From positions 1 through 38,390 of the forward strand of contig JAJYPN010000027.1 in assembly GCA_021795395.1 (NCBI GenBank): a DNA stretch of 38,390 nt, given 5' to 3'. Shown here piece by piece: positions 11,445 to 28,226 of the stretch; position 1 is the first letter of the stretch, and each line of letters opens with the position of its first letter. The position numbers and the translations under genes are program-made. The stretch comes from Pseudomonadota bacterium (lineage in GTDB: Bacteria > Pseudomonadota > Gammaproteobacteria > Burkholderiales > Sulfuriferulaceae). The notes beneath the pieces are model-generated. The model was not told the DNA's origin, made no database searches, and was given only the letters and a program-made list of their open reading frames with translations.

Positions 11445-11468
11445 CGGCACATTAAGGGTGCCGCTTTT
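11445..11468 (+). terminator. Rho-independent-type terminator after DJ-1-like gene
   Basis: A 6-bp stem CGGCAC (11445-11450) pairs with GTGCCG (11458-11463) across a 7-nt loop, followed by CTTTTCCTT. It lies 11 bp past the stop of the DJ-1-like gene and would end the DUF4197/DJ-1 transcript. The rest of the gap to 11613 is very AT-rich from 11520 on, with several possible -10 sequences for the ATP-grasp cluster but no clear -35. Confidence 0.55.
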
Positions 11469-11613
11469 CCTTAAATCGCGCAATATTGAGGCGGCCTTGG
11501 CCCTGCGTTTGACGTGTCGGATAAATTTCATTATAAAACAAATAGATAAATATTATTTTTGGATGGTACGATAATTGCTTTAATACTGTATATTATTGCT
11601 GTCGTACTCCATC

Positions 11614-13053
11614 ATGGAAAATGCCAAGCACAAGCCAAGCTCATCCATTGCGTTTAACGAAATGCTTACCGAAACGGGTGCTGTTCGCGATCACTACCGG
11701 GATATTGCGGCGCAATTATTTGCCTTGCCTATGGAAGACCTGTCACAGAAACAACGCGAAGCGGAAATATTGTTCCGCAGAATGGGTATTACCTTTGCAG
11801 TATACGGCGAGGCTGCCGGAACCGAACGATTGATCCCTTTCGATATCGTGCCGCGAGTGTTCTGCGCTGCTGAATGGGAACGTTTAAAGCAAGGTCTGTT
11901 GCAAAGAGTACATGCGCTCAATGCGTTTCTGCACGATATCTATCACGAACAGCATATCATTCAGGCCGGGATTATTCCTGCGCATCAGATTCTGAAAAAT
12001 AAATTATATCGCCCTGAAATGCAAGGAGTGAATTTACCCAATAAAATATACGCGCATATTGCGGGAATCGATCTGGTACGCATCTCCGAAAACGATTTCT
12101 ATGTATTGGAAGATAATTTGCGCACGCCGTCCGGTGTGTCGTACATGCTGGAAAACCGGAAAACCATGATGCGCCTGTTTCCCGATCTGTTTAGCGATAA
12201 CGCCGTGGCGCCCGTCGAACATTATCCGCTGATGCTGCTGGATAGCTTACGCGAATCCGCCCCGGTCGATTGCAGCGATCCCGTGATTGTAGTGATGACG
12301 CCCGGACCTTACAACAGCGCTTATTTTGAGCACGCATTTCTAGCGAGCCAAATGGGCGTGGAACTTGTTGAAGGCAAAGATCTTTTCGTCCATGAGCACA
12401 AGGTTTACATGCACACTACGGAAGGTCCGCAACGGATTGATGTCATTTATCGACGCGTTGATGACGATTTTCTGGACCCTACCGTATTCAGACCGGACTC
12501 CGGATTGGGGGTACCGGGACTGGTTGACGCTTATCGCCATGGCAATGTCTCTCTTGCCAATGCAATCGGCACCGGTGTTGCCGACGACAAATCCACGTAT
12601 ACATACGTACCTGACATGATCTCGTTTTACCTGGACGAGACGCCGATTTTATCCAACGTTCCTACCTGGCATCTGGATAAACAAGAAGATATGGCTTATG
12701 TTCTAGCCCATCTGAGCGAACTGGTGGTGAAAGAAGCTCAAGGATCGGGAGGTTACGGAATGCTGATCGGACCAACCAGTACGCAACGGGAGATTGCCGC
12801 GTATCGCCAGCGCATCCTGGCGGCACCGGAGAATTTCATCGCGCAGCCTACCCTCGCGCTCTCCACTTGTCCGACCCTGGTTGAAGCGGGAATCGCACCG
12901 CGTCACGTGGATTTGCGGCCATTTGTATTGTCCGGCAAGGAAATACGACTGATGCCCGGCGGCTTGACGCGCGTGGCATTGATCGAGAACTCCCTGATCG
13001 TCAATTCATCCCAGGGCGGCGGCACCAAAGATACCTGGGTACTGGAGGATTAA
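11614..13053 (+). CDS. Circularly permuted type 2 ATP-grasp protein
   Basis: 479 aa from the ATG at 11614 (a TTG 18 nt upstream is the alternative). It matches the circularly permuted ATP-grasp family found with alpha-E proteins: motifs GVSYMLENRK, VVVMTPGPYNSAYFEHAFLA, VIYRRVDDDFLDP, a glycine-rich nucleotide loop GSGGYGMLIGP, and HVDLRPFVL near the C-terminus. ATP-grasp enzymes join a carboxylate to an amine or thiol via acyl-phosphate, so a peptide or amide ligase is expected; the substrate is unknown. The next gene starts 2 bp after the stop. This gene heads a five-gene cluster. Confidence 0.92.
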   Translation: MENAKHKPSSSIAFNEMLTETGAVRDHYRDIAAQLFALPMEDLSQKQREAEILFRRMGITFAVYGEAAGTERLIPFDIVPRVFCAAEWERLKQGLLQRVHALNAFLHDIYHEQHIIQAGIIPAHQILKNKLYRPEMQGVNLPNKIYAHIAGIDLVRISENDFYVLEDNLRTPSGVSYMLENRKTMMRLFPDLFSDNAVAPVEHYPLMLLDSLRESAPVDCSDPVIVVMTPGPYNSAYFEHAFLASQMGVELVEGKDLFVHEHKVYMHTTEGPQRIDVIYRRVDDDFLDPTVFRPDSGLGVPGLVDAYRHGNVSLANAIGTGVADDKSTYTYVPDMISFYLDETPILSNVPTWHLDKQEDMAYVLAHLSELVVKEAQGSGGYGMLIGPTSTQREIAAYRQRILAAPENFIAQPTLALSTCPTLVEAGIAPRHVDLRPFVLSGKEIRLMPGGLTRVALIENSLIVNSSQGGGTKDTWVLED

Positions 13054-13055
13054 TC

Positions 13056-14048
13056 ATGCTCTCACGAACAGCCAGTCATTTATTCTGGATGGCCCGCTAT
13101 ATCGAGCGCGCCGAAAACACGGCACGCGTACTCGATGTTACGCATCGTACCGCCTTGTTGTCCAACGACAGGGAAGAGGCGGAAACGAACGTATGGCACG
13201 CTCCTCTCAATATCAACGGCTGCACGGAAACATATCTCGCCAAATATCAAATGATCAAAAAGGAATACGTCACCCGGTTCATCGCCTACGATCCGGATAA
13301 TTTTTCCAGCATTTATACCAGCCTGATGCTGGCACGTGAAAATGCCCGATCGGTACGCGGTGCGATCACATCGGAAATGTGGGAAAGCATCAATGCGACC
13401 TGGCTGGAAATAAACCGGATGATGTCCAGTACAGGGAGCGAGGCGCAAACCTGTTTTTTCGATTGGGTAAAGGAACGCTCTCATCTTTTTCGCGGTGTAA
13501 CGCTGGGAACCATGCTTAAGGACGATGCGCTGAATTTCATCCGTCTCGGGACGTTTCTCGAGCGTGCCGACAATACCGCCCGCATACTCGATGTGAAATA
13601 CCATATTTTATTGCCTAGCGTCAAAGATGTAGGCGGAGCGGCAGATTATTACCAATGGGGAGCATTGCTCAATTCAGTCAGCGCATTCGAGGCTTATCGC
13701 AAGATTTATCGCGACGTCATCACGCCTCAGCGCGTAGCGGAATTATTGATATTGCGGGCGGATATGCCGCGTTCCTTACATGCTTGCCTCAATGAAGTCG
13801 AAACGACGCTGGAAATGATCAACGGCATCAGCGGTCGGGAAGCTCGCCGGCGTGCAGGCGCATTGCATGCCTCGTTGCATTTCGAGCATAAGGAGAATAT
13901 TTTCAAAAAGGGTCTGCATGAATACCTGACCGAATTCCTTGAAAAAACGGACGACCTTAGCCGGGAAATCCATACCGGTTATCTTGCTCGGCGAGATGAA
14001 ATCGCTGCTTCTGCTGCCCCACAGCGTACGTTCGCACAAGTACAATAA
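13056..14048 (+). CDS. Alpha-E domain protein
   Basis: 330 aa, mostly helical. The N-terminus MLSRTASHLFWMARYIERAE is the hallmark of the alpha-E family (formerly DUF403), and a second family motif, NFIRLGTFLERADNTARIL, lies near the middle. Function is unproven. The family is almost always encoded beside the circularly permuted ATP-grasp and a transglutaminase and is presumed to work with the ligase. GGAGG lies about 7 nt before the ATG, inside the end of the previous gene. The Anbu gene starts 31 bp later. Confidence 0.93.
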   Translation: MLSRTASHLFWMARYIERAENTARVLDVTHRTALLSNDREEAETNVWHAPLNINGCTETYLAKYQMIKKEYVTRFIAYDPDNFSSIYTSLMLARENARSVRGAITSEMWESINATWLEINRMMSSTGSEAQTCFFDWVKERSHLFRGVTLGTMLKDDALNFIRLGTFLERADNTARILDVKYHILLPSVKDVGGAADYYQWGALLNSVSAFEAYRKIYRDVITPQRVAELLILRADMPRSLHACLNEVETTLEMINGISGREARRRAGALHASLHFEHKENIFKKGLHEYLTEFLEKTDDLSREIHTGYLARRDEIAASAAPQRTFAQVQ

Positions 14049-14079: not shown

Positions 14080-14838
14080 ATGACTTATTGCGTAGCACTT
14101 AAACTTAACGAAGGTTTGGTGTTTGCCTCCGACTCGCGTACCAATGCGGGGGTAGACCAAATCGCCAATTTCAGGAAAATGCGCCATTTCATCAATGTCG
14201 GTGACAGGGTGATTGTCGTCCTCAGTGCAGGCAATTTATCCATCACTCAAAGTGCGATCAACTTGTTCGAACAACGAGGCAATTCTGCCGATACGCCCAA
14301 TATGTGGAATTCGGCGTCCTTATACGATATTGCTGCATTGTTAGGTGAATGTTTGCGGGAAGTACGAGAACGCGAAAGCCCTTTTTTGTTGCAGAACAAT
14401 GTAGAAATAGGTACTACCTTTATCCTGGGCGGTCAGATTCGAGGAGAAGCGCCGCGCTTGTTCCTGATTTACGCGGAAGGTAATTTTATTGAAGCCACCG
14501 AAGAACCGTCATTTTTTCAAATCGGCGAAATCAAGTACGGTAAACCGATTATCGATCGCGTTATCGAAGCCAATACGTCTTTGCGCGATGCGGTCAAATG
14601 CGTTTTGGTCTCATTCGATTCGACGATGCGCAGCAACATTTCGGTTGGCATGCCCATCGATCTTGCCTGCTACACCCTTGACAGTTTGAGTTTGCCGCAC
14701 CAATACAGCCTGGCGAGCGGCGATCCCTATTTTACTCAGATCAGCCAAAGCTGGAGCGAAGGATTGCGCGGCGTTTTCGTTGCGTTGCCGGAACCGGACT
14801 GGGATTGTTCGCCGAAATCGCCGACTTCTCCATCATGA
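14080..14838 (+). CDS. Anbu proteasome-type (Ntn-hydrolase) peptidase
   Basis: 252 aa. The first residues are MTYCVALKL, so removal of Met exposes Thr as the N-terminal nucleophile, as in Anbu and HslV. Conserved active-site partners follow: the Asp in ASDSRTNAGVD (Asp18 before Met removal) and Lys33 in FRKM. The frame is open 47 codons further upstream, inside the alpha-E gene, but only this start gives an N-terminal Thr. Anbu forms open, helical or ring-like assemblies of beta-type subunits; substrates are unknown. Its linkage with ATP-grasp, alpha-E and transglutaminase is the standard Anbu neighbourhood. The stop overlaps the next ATG by 4 nt. Confidence 0.93.
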   Translation: MTYCVALKLNEGLVFASDSRTNAGVDQIANFRKMRHFINVGDRVIVVLSAGNLSITQSAINLFEQRGNSADTPNMWNSASLYDIAALLGECLREVRERESPFLLQNNVEIGTTFILGGQIRGEAPRLFLIYAEGNFIEATEEPSFFQIGEIKYGKPIIDRVIEANTSLRDAVKCVLVSFDSTMRSNISVGMPIDLACYTLDSLSLPHQYSLASGDPYFTQISQSWSEGLRGVFVALPEPDWDCSPKSPTSPS

Positions 14839-15743
14839 CCGTACTCGCCGCCTTGCACCACAGCACGCATTACCGGTTCGACAGACCGGTAATCGTATCC
14901 GCGCATGAAATTCGCCTGAAACCCGCCGCACATAGTCGCACCCCCATCCTTGCTTATTCGCTTGAAATTGAACCGGCAAACCATGTGATCCATACTCATC
15001 AGGATGCTTACGGCAATTTCGTCGCCCGCGTCAATTTCCCTCAAGCGGCAGAAGCGTTGCGAATGACCGTAGATCTGATTGCCGATTTGTCTCCCATCAA
15101 CCCATTCGATTTTTTTATCGAACCCTGGGCGGAATACTTTCCGTTCCGCTACCCGGACAATCTAAAATACGATCTAATGCCTTTTCTGCTTACCGAGTCT
15201 CAAGGTGCGCGATTCGATCACTGGTTGGCACTGCTTCGGCAAGAATACCTGGAACCCGTTACCAGCACCGAATTTCTGGTGAAACTGAATCAGACCGTAC
15301 AACAAACGGTATCGTATCTGCCACGATATGAGCATGGCGTACAAACGCCGGAAGTAACGCTGGCCTCCAACTCCGGATCGTGCCGCGACAGCGCCTGGTT
15401 ATTGGTACAACTATTACGACATTTGGGTGTAGCGACCCGTTTCGTCTCAGGGTATTTGATTCAATTAACCGTCGAAGCCTGCGCCTCCGGTTCTGGCAAC
15501 GAACCAGGCGTAGGAGCCGATCTTCATGCCTGGTGCGAAGCTTATATTCCCGGTGCCGGATGGATCGGCCTCGATGCGACTTCGGGCTTACTGACCGGCG
15601 AAGGCCACATTCCTCTTGCTGTGGCCGCATATCCGGAAGCGGCATCCCCTGTGAGCGGGTTTGTCGCCCCGTGCGGTTCCAGCCTCGATATCGCCATGAC
15701 GGCCAGCCTGGCGCACCCTTCCCAGCGAGAATCCGATGCTTGA
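14835..15743 (+). CDS. Transglutaminase-like cysteine peptidase
   Basis: 302 aa with an N-terminal beta domain (HHSTHYRFDRPVIVSAHEI, the usual bacterial transglutaminase start) and a papain-like core. The catalytic triad is visible: Cys183 in SNSGSCRDSAW, His231 in DLHAWCEAY and Asp247 in GLDATSG. Such proteins cut or transfer amide bonds, and in this cluster the likely substrate is the product of the ATP-grasp ligase (inference). The frame opens 10 codons earlier, but the ATG at 14835 overlaps the Anbu stop as ATGA and begins the conserved domain. The 3' end overlaps the next gene by 8 nt. Confidence 0.92.
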   Translation: MTVLAALHHSTHYRFDRPVIVSAHEIRLKPAAHSRTPILAYSLEIEPANHVIHTHQDAYGNFVARVNFPQAAEALRMTVDLIADLSPINPFDFFIEPWAEYFPFRYPDNLKYDLMPFLLTESQGARFDHWLALLRQEYLEPVTSTEFLVKLNQTVQQTVSYLPRYEHGVQTPEVTLASNSGSCRDSAWLLVQLLRHLGVATRFVSGYLIQLTVEACASGSGNEPGVGADLHAWCEAYIPGAGWIGLDATSGLLTGEGHIPLAVAAYPEAASPVSGFVAPCGSSLDIAMTASLAHPSQRESDA

Positions 15744-16965
15744 CTCTACCCGCTTCCCACGTTTTGGCGATAAAACGAATTCTTCGTCGTTTGAAGAATA
15801 TTTGCCCCGTCTGCTGGAAGAACGCGACCGCAGCGGGCTGACGGAAATGATAGGCGGTATCGAAGCGTTGATGATTACGGTAGAACCGGGCAACTCGCTG
15901 GAATATGTGAGCGAATTATCGTTAATGACCCCTTATCATTATCTGGTGACGCTCGACAGCCCCAAACATTTCACCCATGTACTGCGTATCGACATGAATT
16001 CGCCCGATATTTTACTGCGTGAAGTCAAGGATTCGACCTATAGCGATATTTTCCGCAACCTGAACGATATCTATCCAATCGGCGAGCGGCGTCATCATAG
16101 CCGCTATCTCGGCGAAATTCTGCTCGCTACGCAGCGCCACGAAGTCGTCGCACTACAACAGTCCCGTGAATTCAGCTTCTTTCAAATCGGGCAATTAGCC
16201 GAACTGGATTTACCGATTAACGTCAGCATTTCAAGGCCTTCTCCCTATACTCAGAATATTGTGGGGTACATGGAACGCAATGCAGAAGGTATCCGGGTTT
16301 ACCAACACGGCGAGTGCATTATTCTCGCATCCATCCAGGCCGCATACGAACGCGGCAAGGAAATGCAGGAAAGTCTGTCCATCAAAGATCTCATTTTGCC
16401 TATCGACCATCTGGCAACGCGGGTTTACAGTCAAAACCGTGAAGCGGCCCTGCTGGAATATCTGGCGCTATCGAGTTATTATTATTGGGGAAGCTATGAT
16501 ATTAAAGATCAGAATTCCTCTACCAATGTCACCAAAAATGTTCGGTTCGAACCGGAATCCGCGAGTCCGGCCAAAGTTTTTACCGCGAACAATTCCCCTT
16601 ATTGCGTCAATCATCTCGACCGGCTGCCCAGCCCAACCGAAACGTTTGTGCGCAATTACGGCCCGCGGTTGCATCATATGGCCTTAGCGGTCAAAGACGG
16701 TCAACGCAACGGTATGGAACACATCGATTTTGTCGTAGCCGCCATTGCCGCGCAAGGCAAAGGCTTTTTACTGGATACCATCGGTTCGCGTGAAGCGGGA
16801 CTGAAACAGATATTTTCCGCTGCGTCGGAGTTCTCAACTTTAATCATAGAATACGTCCAGCGTTTCGATAATTTTCAGGGATTTTTTACGCGCGAAAATG
16901 TAGCGCTGCTGACGTTCGCTGCCGGTCTGGCGGATGCACCGCAACAACAAACGCGTGCCGGCTAA
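15736..16965 (+). CDS. Unrecognised N-terminal domain fused to HPPD-like VOC (Fe(II) dioxygenase-type) domain
   Basis: 409 aa. I do not recognise residues 1-210. Residues 220-395 follow the C-terminal module of 4-hydroxyphenylpyruvate dioxygenase in order: LPIDHLATRV, then YYYWGSYDIKD, RLHHMALAV, AAIAAQGKGFLLD, GLKQIF and STLIIEYVQR. The three iron ligands of that family are all present as His225, His314 and Glu372. A function as a non-heme Fe(II) oxygenase is therefore plausible but unproven. Family HPPD is about 350-370 aa and lacks this N-terminus. The start lies 8 nt inside the transglutaminase gene, so it is the fifth gene of the Anbu cluster. tBLASTn or a structure model would test the domain call. 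Confidence 0.72.
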   Translation: MLDSTRFPRFGDKTNSSSFEEYLPRLLEERDRSGLTEMIGGIEALMITVEPGNSLEYVSELSLMTPYHYLVTLDSPKHFTHVLRIDMNSPDILLREVKDSTYSDIFRNLNDIYPIGERRHHSRYLGEILLATQRHEVVALQQSREFSFFQIGQLAELDLPINVSISRPSPYTQNIVGYMERNAEGIRVYQHGECIILASIQAAYERGKEMQESLSIKDLILPIDHLATRVYSQNREAALLEYLALSSYYYWGSYDIKDQNSSTNVTKNVRFEPESASPAKVFTANNSPYCVNHLDRLPSPTETFVRNYGPRLHHMALAVKDGQRNGMEHIDFVVAAIAAQGKGFLLDTIGSREAGLKQIFSAASEFSTLIIEYVQRFDNFQGFFTRENVALLTFAAGLADAPQQQTRAG

Positions 16966-18477: not shown

Positions 18478-21400
18478 ATGAATAGTCCCCGCTTGCGCGA
18501 AATTCCGTACAATTATACCTCGTTTTCCGACCGTGAAATCGTCATTCGTCTATTAGGCAATGAAGCTTGGGCGGTACTCAATCAGCTGCGCGACGAACGC
18601 CGTACCGGCCGCTCTGCGCGTATGTTGTTCGAAGTGCTGGGCGATATCTGGGTGGTTTCGCGCAATCCGTATCTGCAGGACGATCTGCTGGCCAACCCGC
18701 AACGCCTGGATGCGCTCATTACTGCGCTGAATCATCGCATCAACGAAATCGAAACCCGCCGTCAGGATAATTCGCTGGTGGCACAAGTGCTCGCTGCCGC
18801 ACGCAAGGCGGTGATCGACTTCGAATCGGAATTCAAACGCACCAACCAGCAACGCCGCGAAATCGTCAAGAAACTCTCTCGCCATACGCGGCGCGACAAC
18901 ATCCAGTTCGACGGACTGGCTCGCGTATCGCACGTGACCGACGCCACCGACTGGCGCGTCGAATATCCGTTCGTCGTGCTCAACCCCGATACCGAGGCCG
19001 AAATCGCCTATCTGGTCAAGGATTGCATAGAGCTGGGGCTTACCATCATTCCACGAGGCGGCGGCACGGGATATACCGGCGGCGCAATCCCTCTGGACAA
19101 ATTTTCCGCCGTCATCAATACCGAAAAACTGGAAGCGCTATCCGCCATCGAAGTTATGCGCCTGGCGCAAACCGACCGGGATTACGCGACCATACATTGC
19201 GGCGCGGGCGTGGTTACGCAACGCGTCATGGAAGCGGCGGATCGAGCCGGACTGGTGTTTGCGGTTGACCCTACTTCCGCCGACGCCTCGTGCATAGGCG
19301 GCAACGTCGCGATGAATGCCGGCGGCAAAAAAGCCGTATTGTGGGGAACGGCGCTCGACAACCTGGTTTCGTGGCGGATGGTGACTCCCGATGCAGAATG
19401 GATGGAAGTGACCCGCATCGGCCATAATTTCGGCAAAATCCATGATGCCGAAACAGCTCATTTTGAAATTCGCCGGTATGCCATCGACGGCACTACTCCG
19501 GTCGGCGAACCGGAAACGCTTGCCATCCCGGGCCAGCATTTCCGTAAGGTCGGTCTGGGCAAAGACGTCACAGACAAGTTTCTGGCTGGTCTGCCCGGCA
19601 TCCAAAAAGAAGGTTGCGACGGCATTATCACGTCCGCGCGCTTCGTCTTGCATAAAATGCCGCCATACATCCGTACCGTATGTCTGGAATTTTTCGGACA
19701 GGTGCGCGATGCGGTACCGGCCATCGTCGAAATCAAGGGCTATCTCGATAGCCACGCCGACGCAACGCTGGCCGGGCTCGAACATCTGGACGCCCGCTAT
19801 CTGAAGGCTGTGGGCTACGCGACCAAGGCGAATCGCCATCATCGGCCCAACATGATTTTATTGGCCGATATCGTGGCCGATAACGAGTCATCCTGCGGAG
19901 ACGCGGCCGCTCACATCGTGCGTATCGCCAACGCCCGCGGCGGCGAAGGATTCATTGCGGTCAGCGTCGAAGCGCGCAAAAAATTCTGGCTGGACCGCGC
20001 GCGCACCGCAGCAATCGCCGCCCATACCAATGCGTTCAAGATCAACGAAGACGTAGTCATTCCCTTACCGCGGCTGGCCGATTACTCGGACGGCATAGAA
20101 CGCATCAATATCGAACTGTCGATCCGGAACAAGCTGGCATTACTCGATGAACTCAGCGGCTTTTTTCATGGCGAATTGCCTCTCTATAGCGATGACGAAA
20201 CCATAGCCGATCCGGACGCGACGGCGGAGCGCAGGATACGCACGTTGGAGCTCCTGCATATATGCCGTCGCCGCTGGGAGTGGTTGCTTACCAACCTGGA
20301 TAATTCCCCTGCCTCTGTTGAGTTGGGCATGAGCACCACCGAACTGATAGCGGCCAATTCCCATGTCAGCGTATTTCATGCTCTGCAGGATCATACTGTG
20401 CGCGTCTCATGGAAACGCGAAGTACGACGCGAAATCCAGCAGATTTTCAATGGCCGCGAGTATCAGCCGATATTGGACAAATGCGACGAGATTCATCTCG
20501 AAATTCGCAAGAGCCGGGTATTTATCGCCTTGCACATGCATGCCGGCGATGGCAACGTCCATACCAATATTCCGGTCAATTCCGACAATTACCTCATGCT
20601 GCAAACCGCCAACGCTGCGGTTGCCCGCATCATGCAGCTGGCACGCGATCTGGGCGGCGTGATATCCGGCGAACACGGCATAGGCTTGACCAAGATGGAA
20701 TATCTGGAAGACGCTGCCGTGGACAGCTTTGTTCGTTACAAACACAAGGTCGATCCGGAGGGCCGTTTCAACAAAGGGAAACTGCTGCCCGGCGCCGATT
20801 TGCGCAACGCCTATACGCCCAGCTTTTCCTTGCTCGAAACCGAATCCTTGATCATGGAAAAATCGGAAATCGGCGAAATTGCCGATTCGATCAAGGATTG
20901 CCTGCGCTGCGGGAAATGCAAGCCGGTCTGCACTACGCACGTGCCGCGTGCAAACCTGCTTTACTCGCCGCGCAACAAGATTCTCGCTACTTCCTTGCTC
21001 ATCGAGGCTTTTCTGTACGAAGAGCAAACGCGTCGCGGCATCTCGATCCAGCATTTCGACGAATTCAGCGATGTGGCCGATCATTGCACCGTCTGCCACA
21101 AATGTATAAATCCGTGTCCGGTCGATATCGATTTCGGCGACGTGTCGATCGCCATGCGAAATTTTTTGCGTAAACAGGGCAAACAAAAATTCAATCCCGG
21201 GACGGCTGCCAGCATGTTCTTCCTGAACGCTACCGACCCGACCACGATCAAGCTGACGCGCAAACTGATGATAGAGTGGGGCTATAAGGCTCAACGCCTG
21301 GCGTTTCAGGGCGCCAGAAAGCTCGGCCTGATCAGGCCGCAAGTCAAGCATCCGCCGGCAACTGTGGGGGTCGCGCCGGTCAAAGCCCAAGTCATACATT

Positions 21401-22308
21401 TCATCAACAAACCCATGCCGGGCGGGTTGCCAAAAAAGACCAGCCGCGCACTGCTGGGCCTGGAAGACGCCAGGATAGTTCCTGTCATTCGCAATCCGCA
21501 AAAATTGACGGAAGAATCGGATGCCGTGTTCTATTTTCCGGGTTGCGGTTCGGAGCGTCTGTTCTCGCAGGTCGGTCTGGCTACTCAAGCCATGCTGTTC
21601 GATCTCGGCACGCAAACGGTGTTGCCGCCGGGCTATCTGTGCTGCGGCTATCCGCAGACTTCTACCGGACAAGCGGATAAAGGCGAGGCCATTACGACCG
21701 AAAATCGGGTCTTGTTTCACCGAATCGCGAATACGCTGAATTACCTGGATATCAAAACAGTTATCGTATCGTGCGGCACCTGCATGGATCAATTGCTCAA
21801 ATATCAGTTCGAAAAAATATTTCCGGGCTGCCGGCTGCTCGATATCCATGAATACCTGATGGAAAAAGGATTGAAGCTCGACGGCATTTCGGGCATGCAT
21901 TATATGTATCACGATCCCTGCCATACCCCGATGAAAACCTACCAACCCCTGAAAGTCGTCAATCAGTTGATGGGTGAGCCCGTGACCTTATCCAACCGCT
22001 GTTGTGGCGAATCCGGCACGTTTGCCATTTCCCGTCCGGATATCTCGACTCAGGTGCGCTTTCGCAAAGAGGAAGAAATCCGCAAGGATGTCGCGCAAAT
22101 CAGGAATGTCACCGGCGAGGCTACGCCAGTCAAAATATTGACTTCGTGTCCGTCATGCTTGCAGGGTCTGGGACGGTATGACAACGATGCCGATACCAGC
22201 GCCGATTATATCGTCGTTGAAATGGCGAAAGCGATATTGGGAGAAAACTGGATGGAGGATTACATTACGCTCGCCAACCGGGGCGGCATAGAACGCGTAT
22301 TATTATAG
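18478..22308 (+). CDS. DUF3683 FAD-binding and Fe-S oxidoreductase (D-lactate/glycolate dehydrogenase-like fusion)
   Basis: 1276 aa multidomain protein. An N-terminal DUF3683 region (about 1-150) precedes an FAD-binding domain ([16 protein letters not shown] near 192-207; [15 protein letters not shown]) and an FAD-oxidase C-terminal domain with [10 protein letters not shown] and [14 protein letters not shown]. Two 4Fe-4S cysteine clusters follow: [11 protein letters not shown] near 808 and [14 protein letters not shown] near 869. Two CCG domains end it (PGCGSERLF near 1022 and YHDPCHTP near 1144, plus NRCCGESG). It combines GlcD/Dld and GlcF/GlpC parts, so it likely oxidises a 2-hydroxy acid such as D-lactate and passes electrons onward. 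The substrate is not known. It is common in betaproteobacteria. Confidence 0.9.
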
Positions 22309-27153: not shown

Positions 27154-28226
27154 ACGGTATCGAACCTCCGCATGGCCAAGCCGCAGGCGACCATCAATGC
27201 GGGCGCATCCACCGCCAGCTTGGTGGCCAGCACGCGAGCGGAACACGTCATGCCGACAAAAGGATTGGCAACCAGCGTACTGGCCTCGGTGCGGTTCGCA
27301 ACCGCCTCATCGAGTCCGGGCAAGACAGCGCAACCGCCAGCCAGGACGATATGGTCGACCTTGATATAAGAAGTGGAGGAAAAAAACAACTGCAACGCCC
27401 GGCTGATTTCAAGGGCAAGCGTTTCGATAAAGGGGTGCAGCACTTCGAGATCGTAATTTTCCAGCAAATTACCCTTGCGTTTCGCTTTTTCGGCTTCTTC
27501 TGACGACAGTCCGTAACGGCGCTGAATTTCCAGCGTCAGCTGATTGCCGCCGAATGATTGTTCGCGCGAATAAACCATGACATGGTTGACGAATACCATG
27601 ATATGCATGGTGGTTGCGCCGATATCTATCAAGGCGATGATCTGGCCCCTGCCGCTTTCCGGCAAAATATGTGCCATGCCTTCATAAGCCGTCTGGCTGG
27701 CATTGAATTCGGTATCCACCACCAGAACCTTCAGGCCGGCAGCCTCAGCCACCGCCACGCGATCTTCGACTTTTTCCTTGCGGCTCGCTACGATCAGAAC
27801 CTCGACATCGTTGTTCGAATTGGGTACCGGATTCAATATCTGAAAATCCAGATTGACTTCGTCCAGAGCAAAAGGTATGACCTGATTCGCCTCGGCCTCC
27901 ACCTGAATCTCCATTTCGTCTTCGGTCAAGTCGGCGGGCAAAATGATTTTCTTGGTAATGACCGCCGCAGCCGGCAACGCCAGCGCAACATGCCTGGAAC
28001 GCGATCCCATGCGCTCCCAGCCACGCTTCATGGCCTCTACCACTTCGTCCATTTTTGCGATATTTCCCTCTACTATCGCATCCTTGGGCAAGGGCTCGAT
28101 CGCATAGCGTTCGAGACTGCAACGTTCGCGACCCATCTCACCGAATTCCACCAGTTTTATCCCTGTCGAACTGATATCGACGCCAACCAAAGGAGGAGAA
28201 TTTATTTTAAGGAAGTTGAACTGCAA
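27150..28226 (-). CDS. pilM: Type IV pilus actin-like protein PilM
   Basis: 358 aa cytoplasmic protein of the FtsA/actin fold. The nucleotide-binding phosphate-1 motif is VGVDISSTGIKLVEF near the start, a phosphate-2 motif is ALIDIGATTMHIMVF, and the adenosine motif is IVLAGGCAVLPGLDE. PilM binds the N-terminus of PilN and connects the alignment complex to the motor. The start codon is TTG (28226) with AAGGGA about 6 nt upstream; no suitable ATG is present near it. It heads the operon pilMNOPQ, divergent from the penicillin-binding protein gene. Confidence 0.94.
   Translation of the reverse strand: MQFNFLKINSPPLVGVDISSTGIKLVEFGEMGRERCSLERYAIEPLPKDAIVEGNIAKMDEVVEAMKRGWERMGSRSRHVALALPAAAVITKKIILPADLTEDEMEIQVEAEANQVIPFALDEVNLDFQILNPVPNSNNDVEVLIVASRKEKVEDRVAVAEAAGLKVLVVDTEFNASQTAYEGMAHILPESGRGQIIALIDIGATTMHIMVFVNHVMVYSREQSFGGNQLTLEIQRRYGLSSEEAEKAKRKGNLLENYDLEVLHPFIETLALEISRALQLFFSSTSYIKVDHIVLAGGCAVLPGLDEAVANRTEASTLVANPFVGMTCSARVLATKLAVDAPALMVACGLAMRRFDTV

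Follow-up and report, generated by a model that had tools for sequence, protein, structure and literature searches.

A predicted HPPD-fold oxygenase, possibly an optional accessory to an amidoligase/Anbu regulon of nitrogen limitation

Introduction

The operon that carries the proteasome-like protein Anbu was reportedly defined in a 2009 review of amidoligases. The part of PMC6376114 cited here describes it as four genes, encoding an ATP-grasp protein, an Alpha-E protein, a transglutaminase and Anbu, and states that neither peptidase activity nor a stable complex was detected for Anbu. Nitrogen recurs in passages from other sources: in B. cenocepacia the genes for DUF404/407, DUF403 and transglutaminase proteins depend on NtrC and sigma54 (PMC5491218), nitrogen limitation upregulates Anbu in P. 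putida (cited in PMC5666114), and the domains DUF404/407, DUF403 and transglutaminase group with those of urea metabolism in marine metagenomes (PMC3597751). The Pseudomonas rlo operon was not used for comparison, as the cited passages of PMC12239564 concern other ATP-grasp and transglutaminase proteins.

An earlier, sequence-only reading of the locus described here proposed that a VOC-type oxygenase belongs to this set of genes and knew of no such oxygenase described as part of it. The literature agrees as far as our search went: no VOC-Anbu association was found in the open PMC literature among the matches listed, and an earlier mention in the 2009 review is possible.

Results

The window, by which we mean the whole stretch of 38,390 nucleotides that was analysed, comes from a genome of 2.5 Mb in 57 contigs that is 92.8% complete. 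Several of its closest named relatives are Sulfuriferula, and a plasmid search gave no match. The + strand carries, in order, genes for a circularly permuted ATP-grasp protein, an Alpha-E protein, Anbu, a transglutaminase-like protein and the putative oxygenase. We use VOC as a label for the gene at 15736-16965, its protein and its homologues, and core for ATP-grasp/Alpha-E. The features are as follows.

11447..11461, + strand: NtrC-like palindrome core GCAC-N7-GTGC, from the sequence and a general consensus
11564..11578, + strand: one-mismatch sigma54-type −24/−12 site; the likely ATP-grasp ATG (11614) follows 36-50 bp downstream
11596..13053, + strand: ATP-grasp ligase, circularly permuted (Pfam PF14403, E 2.7e-166; PF04174, E 5.6e-157)
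13056..14048, + strand: Alpha-E protein (Pfam PF04168, E 5.2e-99)
14080..14838, + strand: Anbu, proteasome-like Ntn hydrolase (Pfam PF00227, E 9.8e-06)
14805..15743, + strand: transglutaminase-like protein (Pfam PF08379 and PF01841; no DUF2126 domain)
15736..16965, + strand: VOC, putative Fe(II) oxygenase of the HPPD/HMS fold, predicted ligands His225, His314 and Glu372

The listed starts of the ATP-grasp and transglutaminase genes are the TTG codons at 11596 and 14805; the ATG codons at 11614 and 14835, respectively, are likelier. The list of open reading frames agrees with the 409-aa VOC frame given by the sequence-only reading and with its 8-nt overlap with the transglutaminase gene, which stops at 15743. 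An alignment of Anbu homologues showed Thr2, Asp18 and Lys33 to be invariant. Downstream, a PAS-HAMP gene lies 226 bp after VOC; the relatives compared lack a corresponding gene there. Farther on, positions 18478-22308 encode a 1276-aa protein. Its relative in locus L013 combines FAD-oxidase, 4Fe-4S and cysteine-rich domains, and both there and in L018 the corresponding gene comes immediately after VOC, with no PAS-HAMP gene between.

The 8-nt overlap proved not to be the usual arrangement. At this place relatives have a protein of ~1100 aa that combines a transglutaminase with DUF2126 (1320 bits in L013), a domain listed by Pfam as a putative amidoligase, and within the genus the same protein is found in L125-L129 and L131. 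The transglutaminase of the window ends at residue 312 and matches residues 1-318 of a 1109-aa relative, and DUF2126 had no match in the window's own genome, which is 92.8% complete. Most simply, a deletion of ~790 codons produced the overlap between the transglutaminase and VOC genes; misassembly is another possible cause of the missing DUF2126. The VOC gene is intact here although DUF2126 is absent. A second short transglutaminase-like gene, encoding ~290-310 aa, follows VOC directly or one open reading frame on in L014, L016, L017, L125 and L127.

AlphaFold was run on an alignment of diverse relatives (A2), and the best of the five models had a pLDDT of 86.3 and a pTM of 0.87, with pLDDT values across the five ranging from 86 to 65. 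A first run on close relatives, in which the C-terminal half was poor (mean pLDDT 57), was set aside. The best Foldseek match of the model was 2r5v, a hydroxymandelate synthase (HMS; E 8.3e-13, TM 0.56, rmsd 5.5 Å), and the best 50 of the 191 matches at E 0.001 were all HPPD or HMS. Among these best 50 of 191 the identity to VOC was 10-15% and the superpositions were loose (TM 0.47-0.56, rmsd 5.5-8.6 Å). A viral structure library returned nothing for the model at E 0.001. The paired beta-alpha-beta-beta-beta modules expected of a protein of this kind are present in the model, with two predicted in the N-terminal and two in the C-terminal half, and the Foldseek matches agree with them. Because the Foldseek alignments, of ~414 columns, span the whole VOC chain and thus both halves, residues 1-210, which the sequence-only reading had left as an unrecognised domain, can be assigned as a predicted HPPD-type N-terminal half. 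No added signalling or DNA-binding domain was found in VOC by Pfam or in the AlphaFold model.

A further claim made for VOC was that it contains the segments of the HPPD C-terminal module in their order, with His225, His314 and Glu372 in the iron-ligand positions. We compared a profile of 47 diverse VOC sequences (A2) with a profile of 15 HPPD-family sequences (A3) by HHalign. The C-terminal half of VOC aligned with P ~2e-4, in a comparison that took in the HPPD family alone; HHalign's own probability was 46%. This result supports the proposed segment order, and the three residues fell in register with the HPPD ligands. The score of 39.1 was above the highest decoy values, 29.8 among 200 with shuffled columns and 18.8 among 50 rotations of the reversed alignment, the rotations not being mutually independent. 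To assemble A3, a script examined 16 of 27 HPPD matches and retained 15 on the grounds of length and known motifs; 14 of them score above the curated cut-off and L162 slightly below it. This selection favours good HPPDs.

Library searches with VOC gave the following results. YecM (PF06185) was the sole Pfam match, and the best, but its E value was 0.14 (best value 0.021, with matches in 4 of the 47 members). NCBIfam gave no match up to E 1, and thus the threshold of TIGR01263 (HPPD) was not reached; TIGR01263 also had no match in the window's own genome. Against PDB sequences, phmmer found only an aldehyde decarbonylase at E 1.1 and a profile search found nothing up to E 10, while PHROGs and PADLOC yielded no convincing family. 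None of these libraries (Pfam, NCBIfam, PHROGs and PADLOC) contains a curated model that finds the VOC family. Given the HHalign probability of 46% and the empty PDB profile search, the sequence comparison by itself amounts to support rather than proof. Two further matches were not taken as evidence: Rotavirus_VP1, seen in 5 of the 47 members with E 0.0047 at best, and Glyoxalase_4, seen in 11 of 47 with E 0.049 at best. Identity with HglS/DUF1338 (PF07063) was unsupported, this family being absent among the Pfam matches up to E 10. HglS/DUF1338 and YecM both have folds of the VOC superfamily.

Conservation bore out the proposed ligands, as His225, His314 and Glu372 were invariant in 47 of 47 homologues and in all 74 distinct full-length homologues, a count from which truncated copies were excluded. 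The 47 sequences, with 58-83% identity to VOC, had 130 invariant columns that included the triad and many polar residues, those of the C-terminal half being S261-N264, K267, K280, N286, E302, R306, K357 and Q358. These invariant polar residues suggest a charged rather than a phenolic substrate. The first Gln of the HPPD motif SQIQ corresponds to Pro300 in VOC and the HPPD Gln before the second ligand His corresponds to His313, the alignment being approximate at both places. In HPPD these Gln residues bind the 4-hydroxyphenyl group; with Pro300 and His313 in their stead, the phenol-binding residues appear not to have been kept.

Homologues were counted in sets of different breadth. The close-relative set consisted of 48 VOC loci from a genome-contig collection and favours near relatives. 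VOC was present in 9 of 17 other genomes of the genus, in none of 23 genomes from other families of the order, in 30 of 369 genomes of an evenly spread class sample and in 7 of 398 genomes of a phylum sample, the last two counts including the window's own genome; five of the seven were from one family outside the class. The named genera, taken from record titles, are mostly those of sulfur/iron oxidisers, methanotrophs and methylotrophs. The copies of the VOC gene in L009/L012 (genome G001), L010/L011 (G003), L103 (G196) and L107 (G246) are shortened or broken across reading frames, as if they were decaying, frameshifted or misassembled.

In the class sample, with the window's own genome included, Anbu was found in 27 of 30 genomes with VOC and in 59 of 339 others (Fisher 5e-16), and Alpha-E was found in 28 of 30 and 78 of 339, respectively (Fisher 1e-14). 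Relatedness was allowed for by counting genera only, in which case Anbu was present in 25 of 26 genera with VOC versus 52 of 246 without. The VOC genomes lacking Anbu were G224, G320 and G358; Alpha-E was lacking in G320 and G358, of which G358 is only 79% complete. No VOC match was found in 78 of the 106 Alpha-E genomes of this sample.

Among fully flanked loci, ATP-grasp or Alpha-E genes were within ~8 kb of VOC in 10 of 20 from the class sample, 19 of 21 from the close-relative set and 6 of 6 from the genus, window included. The unit of these linkage counts is the locus, with genomes G083 and G088 contributing two each, and the counts leave out L033 (1/48) and L111 and L114 (2/31), in which the gene list had no usable VOC open reading frame. 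The sequence-only reading had made VOC the fifth member of the Anbu cluster, an idea that homologues lying mostly away from Anbu would weaken. At the level of genomes the tie holds (Anbu in 27/30 versus 59/339), whereas constant membership does not, since only 10 of 20 loci are core-linked; thus the homologues are apart from the cluster in half of the loci physically, but not genome-wide.

ATP-grasp, Alpha-E, Anbu, transglutaminase-DUF2126 and VOC occurred in this order on one strand in 15 of the 48 close-relative loci. Loci such as L044, L046 and L053, from Methylotenera and a Methylobacillus MAG, lack an Anbu gene in the vicinity and follow the order ATP-grasp, Alpha-E, short transglutaminase, VOC and transglutaminase-DUF2126. 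Core-linked VOC loci without Anbu nearby amounted to 5 of 29 in the close-relative set and 6 of 14 in the class sample. The amidoligase core is thus a partner of VOC to the same degree as Anbu, if not more. Protein distances of VOC in 36 linked loci correlated with those of ATP-grasp (r 0.63, with 0 of 1000 permutations as high), and Alpha-E distances followed ATP-grasp more closely (r 0.96). Around the 18 VOC loci counted as unlinked or undetermined, no neighbour family among the 15 largest clusters was present in more than three loci; on visual inspection these clusters resemble common metabolic and transport genes. In L026, L039, L040, L055 and L060 one VOC gene has two Anbu genes in its neighbourhood, with one or both of them only 36-44% identical to the Anbu of the window. 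Such pairs are perhaps the two Anbu subtypes mentioned in the cited part of PMC5666114.

Because the literature links the core cluster to nitrogen, we looked for −24/−12 sites. The sites were matched to general consensus sequences for sigma54 and NtrC and are described at the level of motifs. The sigma54-type site at 11564-11578 is not significant when taken alone, as the window contained 5 matches with 4.1 expected, and the palindrome at 11447-11461 may instead be the terminator stem of the upstream gene. On the minus strand, positions 27662-27676 fit the short sigma54 pattern without a mismatch.

Across loci, a sigma54-type site preceded 32 of 42 ATP-grasp genes versus 16 of 186 controls, the controls being other transcript-starting genes of the same loci, with starts called mechanically. 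The site was also found before 19 of 34 transcript-starting VOC genes versus none of the 35 located inside an operon, a split that was made after seeing a first, cruder screen at the same threshold. In that screen the site was found for 11 of 46 VOC genes near the core, 9 of 33 VOC genes without it, 34 of 43 ATP-grasp genes and 27 of 375 other genes. Among the transcript-starting VOC genes, the site was present in 12 of 14 with the core near and in 7 of 20 without (Fisher p 0.003 for the latter versus controls). VOC genes that are close to the core without following it almost all carry a sigma54 site of their own, as do some distant ones, and this is our best evidence for a shared function, at the level of sequence motifs.

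The exact NtrC-like core was found in 9 of the 33 ATP-grasp upstreams with a sigma54 site (window included) versus 1 of 359 controls, and at 7 of 8 bases it was found in 19 of 33 versus 36 of 359; the control upstreams were not required to carry a sigma54 site. VOC upstreams had weak NtrC-like sites: none of 23 was exact and 9 of 23 agreed in 7 of 8 bases, with one genome counted twice. Near-duplicate upstreams were removed for the sigma54 counts and the ATP-grasp NtrC counts and kept for the VOC NtrC count.

Discussion

Judged from the predicted structure, VOC is probably a new family of HPPD-fold, Fe(II)-dependent oxygenases. We lean, with modest confidence, towards the explanation that this family is an accessory, and an optional one, to an amidoligase/Anbu regulon of nitrogen limitation. 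VOC would then form a complete HPPD/hydroxymandelate-synthase fold of two N-terminal modules and a C-terminal pair, the latter holding one Fe(II) on His225, His314 and Glu372. An alpha-keto acid or other bidentate oxygen ligand would bind at the iron together with O2 and, by the chemistry of the fold family, O2 would attack, CO2 would leave and a ferryl oxygen would oxidise the substrate, presumably one other than 4-hydroxyphenylpyruvate. VOC would be part of a set under sigma54/NtrC control that comprises ATP-grasp, Alpha-E, the transglutaminase-DUF2126 amidoligase and usually Anbu. Its task under nitrogen limitation would concern a building block of an amide-linked product, which it would prepare, tailor or recycle. 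It may act on what the ligases take up, a carboxylate or keto acid, or on what they release as product.

We considered whether VOC might share the regulon of the amidoligase/Anbu genes and not their pathway, as a nitrogen-limitation enzyme of independent catabolism that oxidises, for example, a scavenged aromatic or keto acid. Several observations fit such an enzyme, namely the 10 of 20 fully flanked class-sample loci in which VOC is unlinked, the 18 unlinked or undetermined loci in which no neighbour family of the 15 largest clusters recurs more than three times, and a distance correlation looser than that of the ATP-grasp/Alpha-E pair. However, the genomes with VOC are nearly nested within those with Anbu (27/30) and Alpha-E (28/30), and the five genes are adjacent in a fixed order in 15 of 48 loci, which makes independent catabolism unlikely in our judgement.

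The chemistry of VOC could also be of another kind. A His/His/Glu site is common to several families of the VOC superfamily, including extradiol dioxygenases, and VOC might be an extradiol-type or other non-keto-acid oxygenase acting on a catechol-like or other vicinal-oxygen substrate. The shared triad type and the presence of His313 in place of the HPPD Gln before the second iron His would suit this possibility, which we nonetheless hold to be improbable given that the best 50 of 191 Foldseek matches are all HPPD/HMS and that the segment QIF...EYVQR...GFF..N aligns with the HPPD C-terminus. The lack of a known substrate for VOC would also fit a protein that carries out no redox chemistry and is instead a metal- or ligand-binding sensor or a structural subunit of an amidoligase complex. 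Such a role seems to us very improbable in view of the enzyme-like conservation (130 invariant columns in 47 sequences) and of an HPPD fold that is predicted to fill the chain, with no extra signalling or DNA-binding domain found.

If VOC is indeed an accessory oxygenase of the amidoligase/Anbu regulon, one can tentatively picture a nitrogen-starvation pathway in which amide ligases (ATP-grasp and DUF2126), a transglutaminase, Anbu and the HPPD-fold oxygenase act on an oxidatively tailored amide-linked product, a possibility that we hold to be somewhat less likely than not. This pathway would cover the making or the recycling of the product, in many sulfur/iron-oxidising, methanotrophic and methylotrophic proteobacteria. 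If true, the Anbu system would gain a redox step, the first for it, along with a chemical handle on the Anbu substrate. The presence of VOC in the same genomes, often with the same promoter type, would limit the chemistry to O2, a metal and probably a keto acid. VOC also offers a single-gene deletion target whose metabolite change could be sought, and lineages with unlinked copies allow it to be studied apart from the ligases.

Comparison with the known systems shows likeness and difference for both the protein and the locus. VOC is like HPPD and HMS in its predicted fold over the whole chain and in having predicted His/His/Glu ligands in register, and it shares the QIF and E..QR motifs with HPPD; it resembles an HPPD-fold enzyme in outline but is not classed as an HPPD. 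Thr2, Asp18 and Lys33 of the Anbu encoded here correspond to the candidate catalytic residues Thr1, Asp17 and Lys32(33) in the cited part of PMC6376114. As in the described Anbu operon, all four genes are adjacent and in one direction, whereas a predicted HPPD-fold gene follows them in the window and the transglutaminase is without the DUF2126 domain of its relatives.
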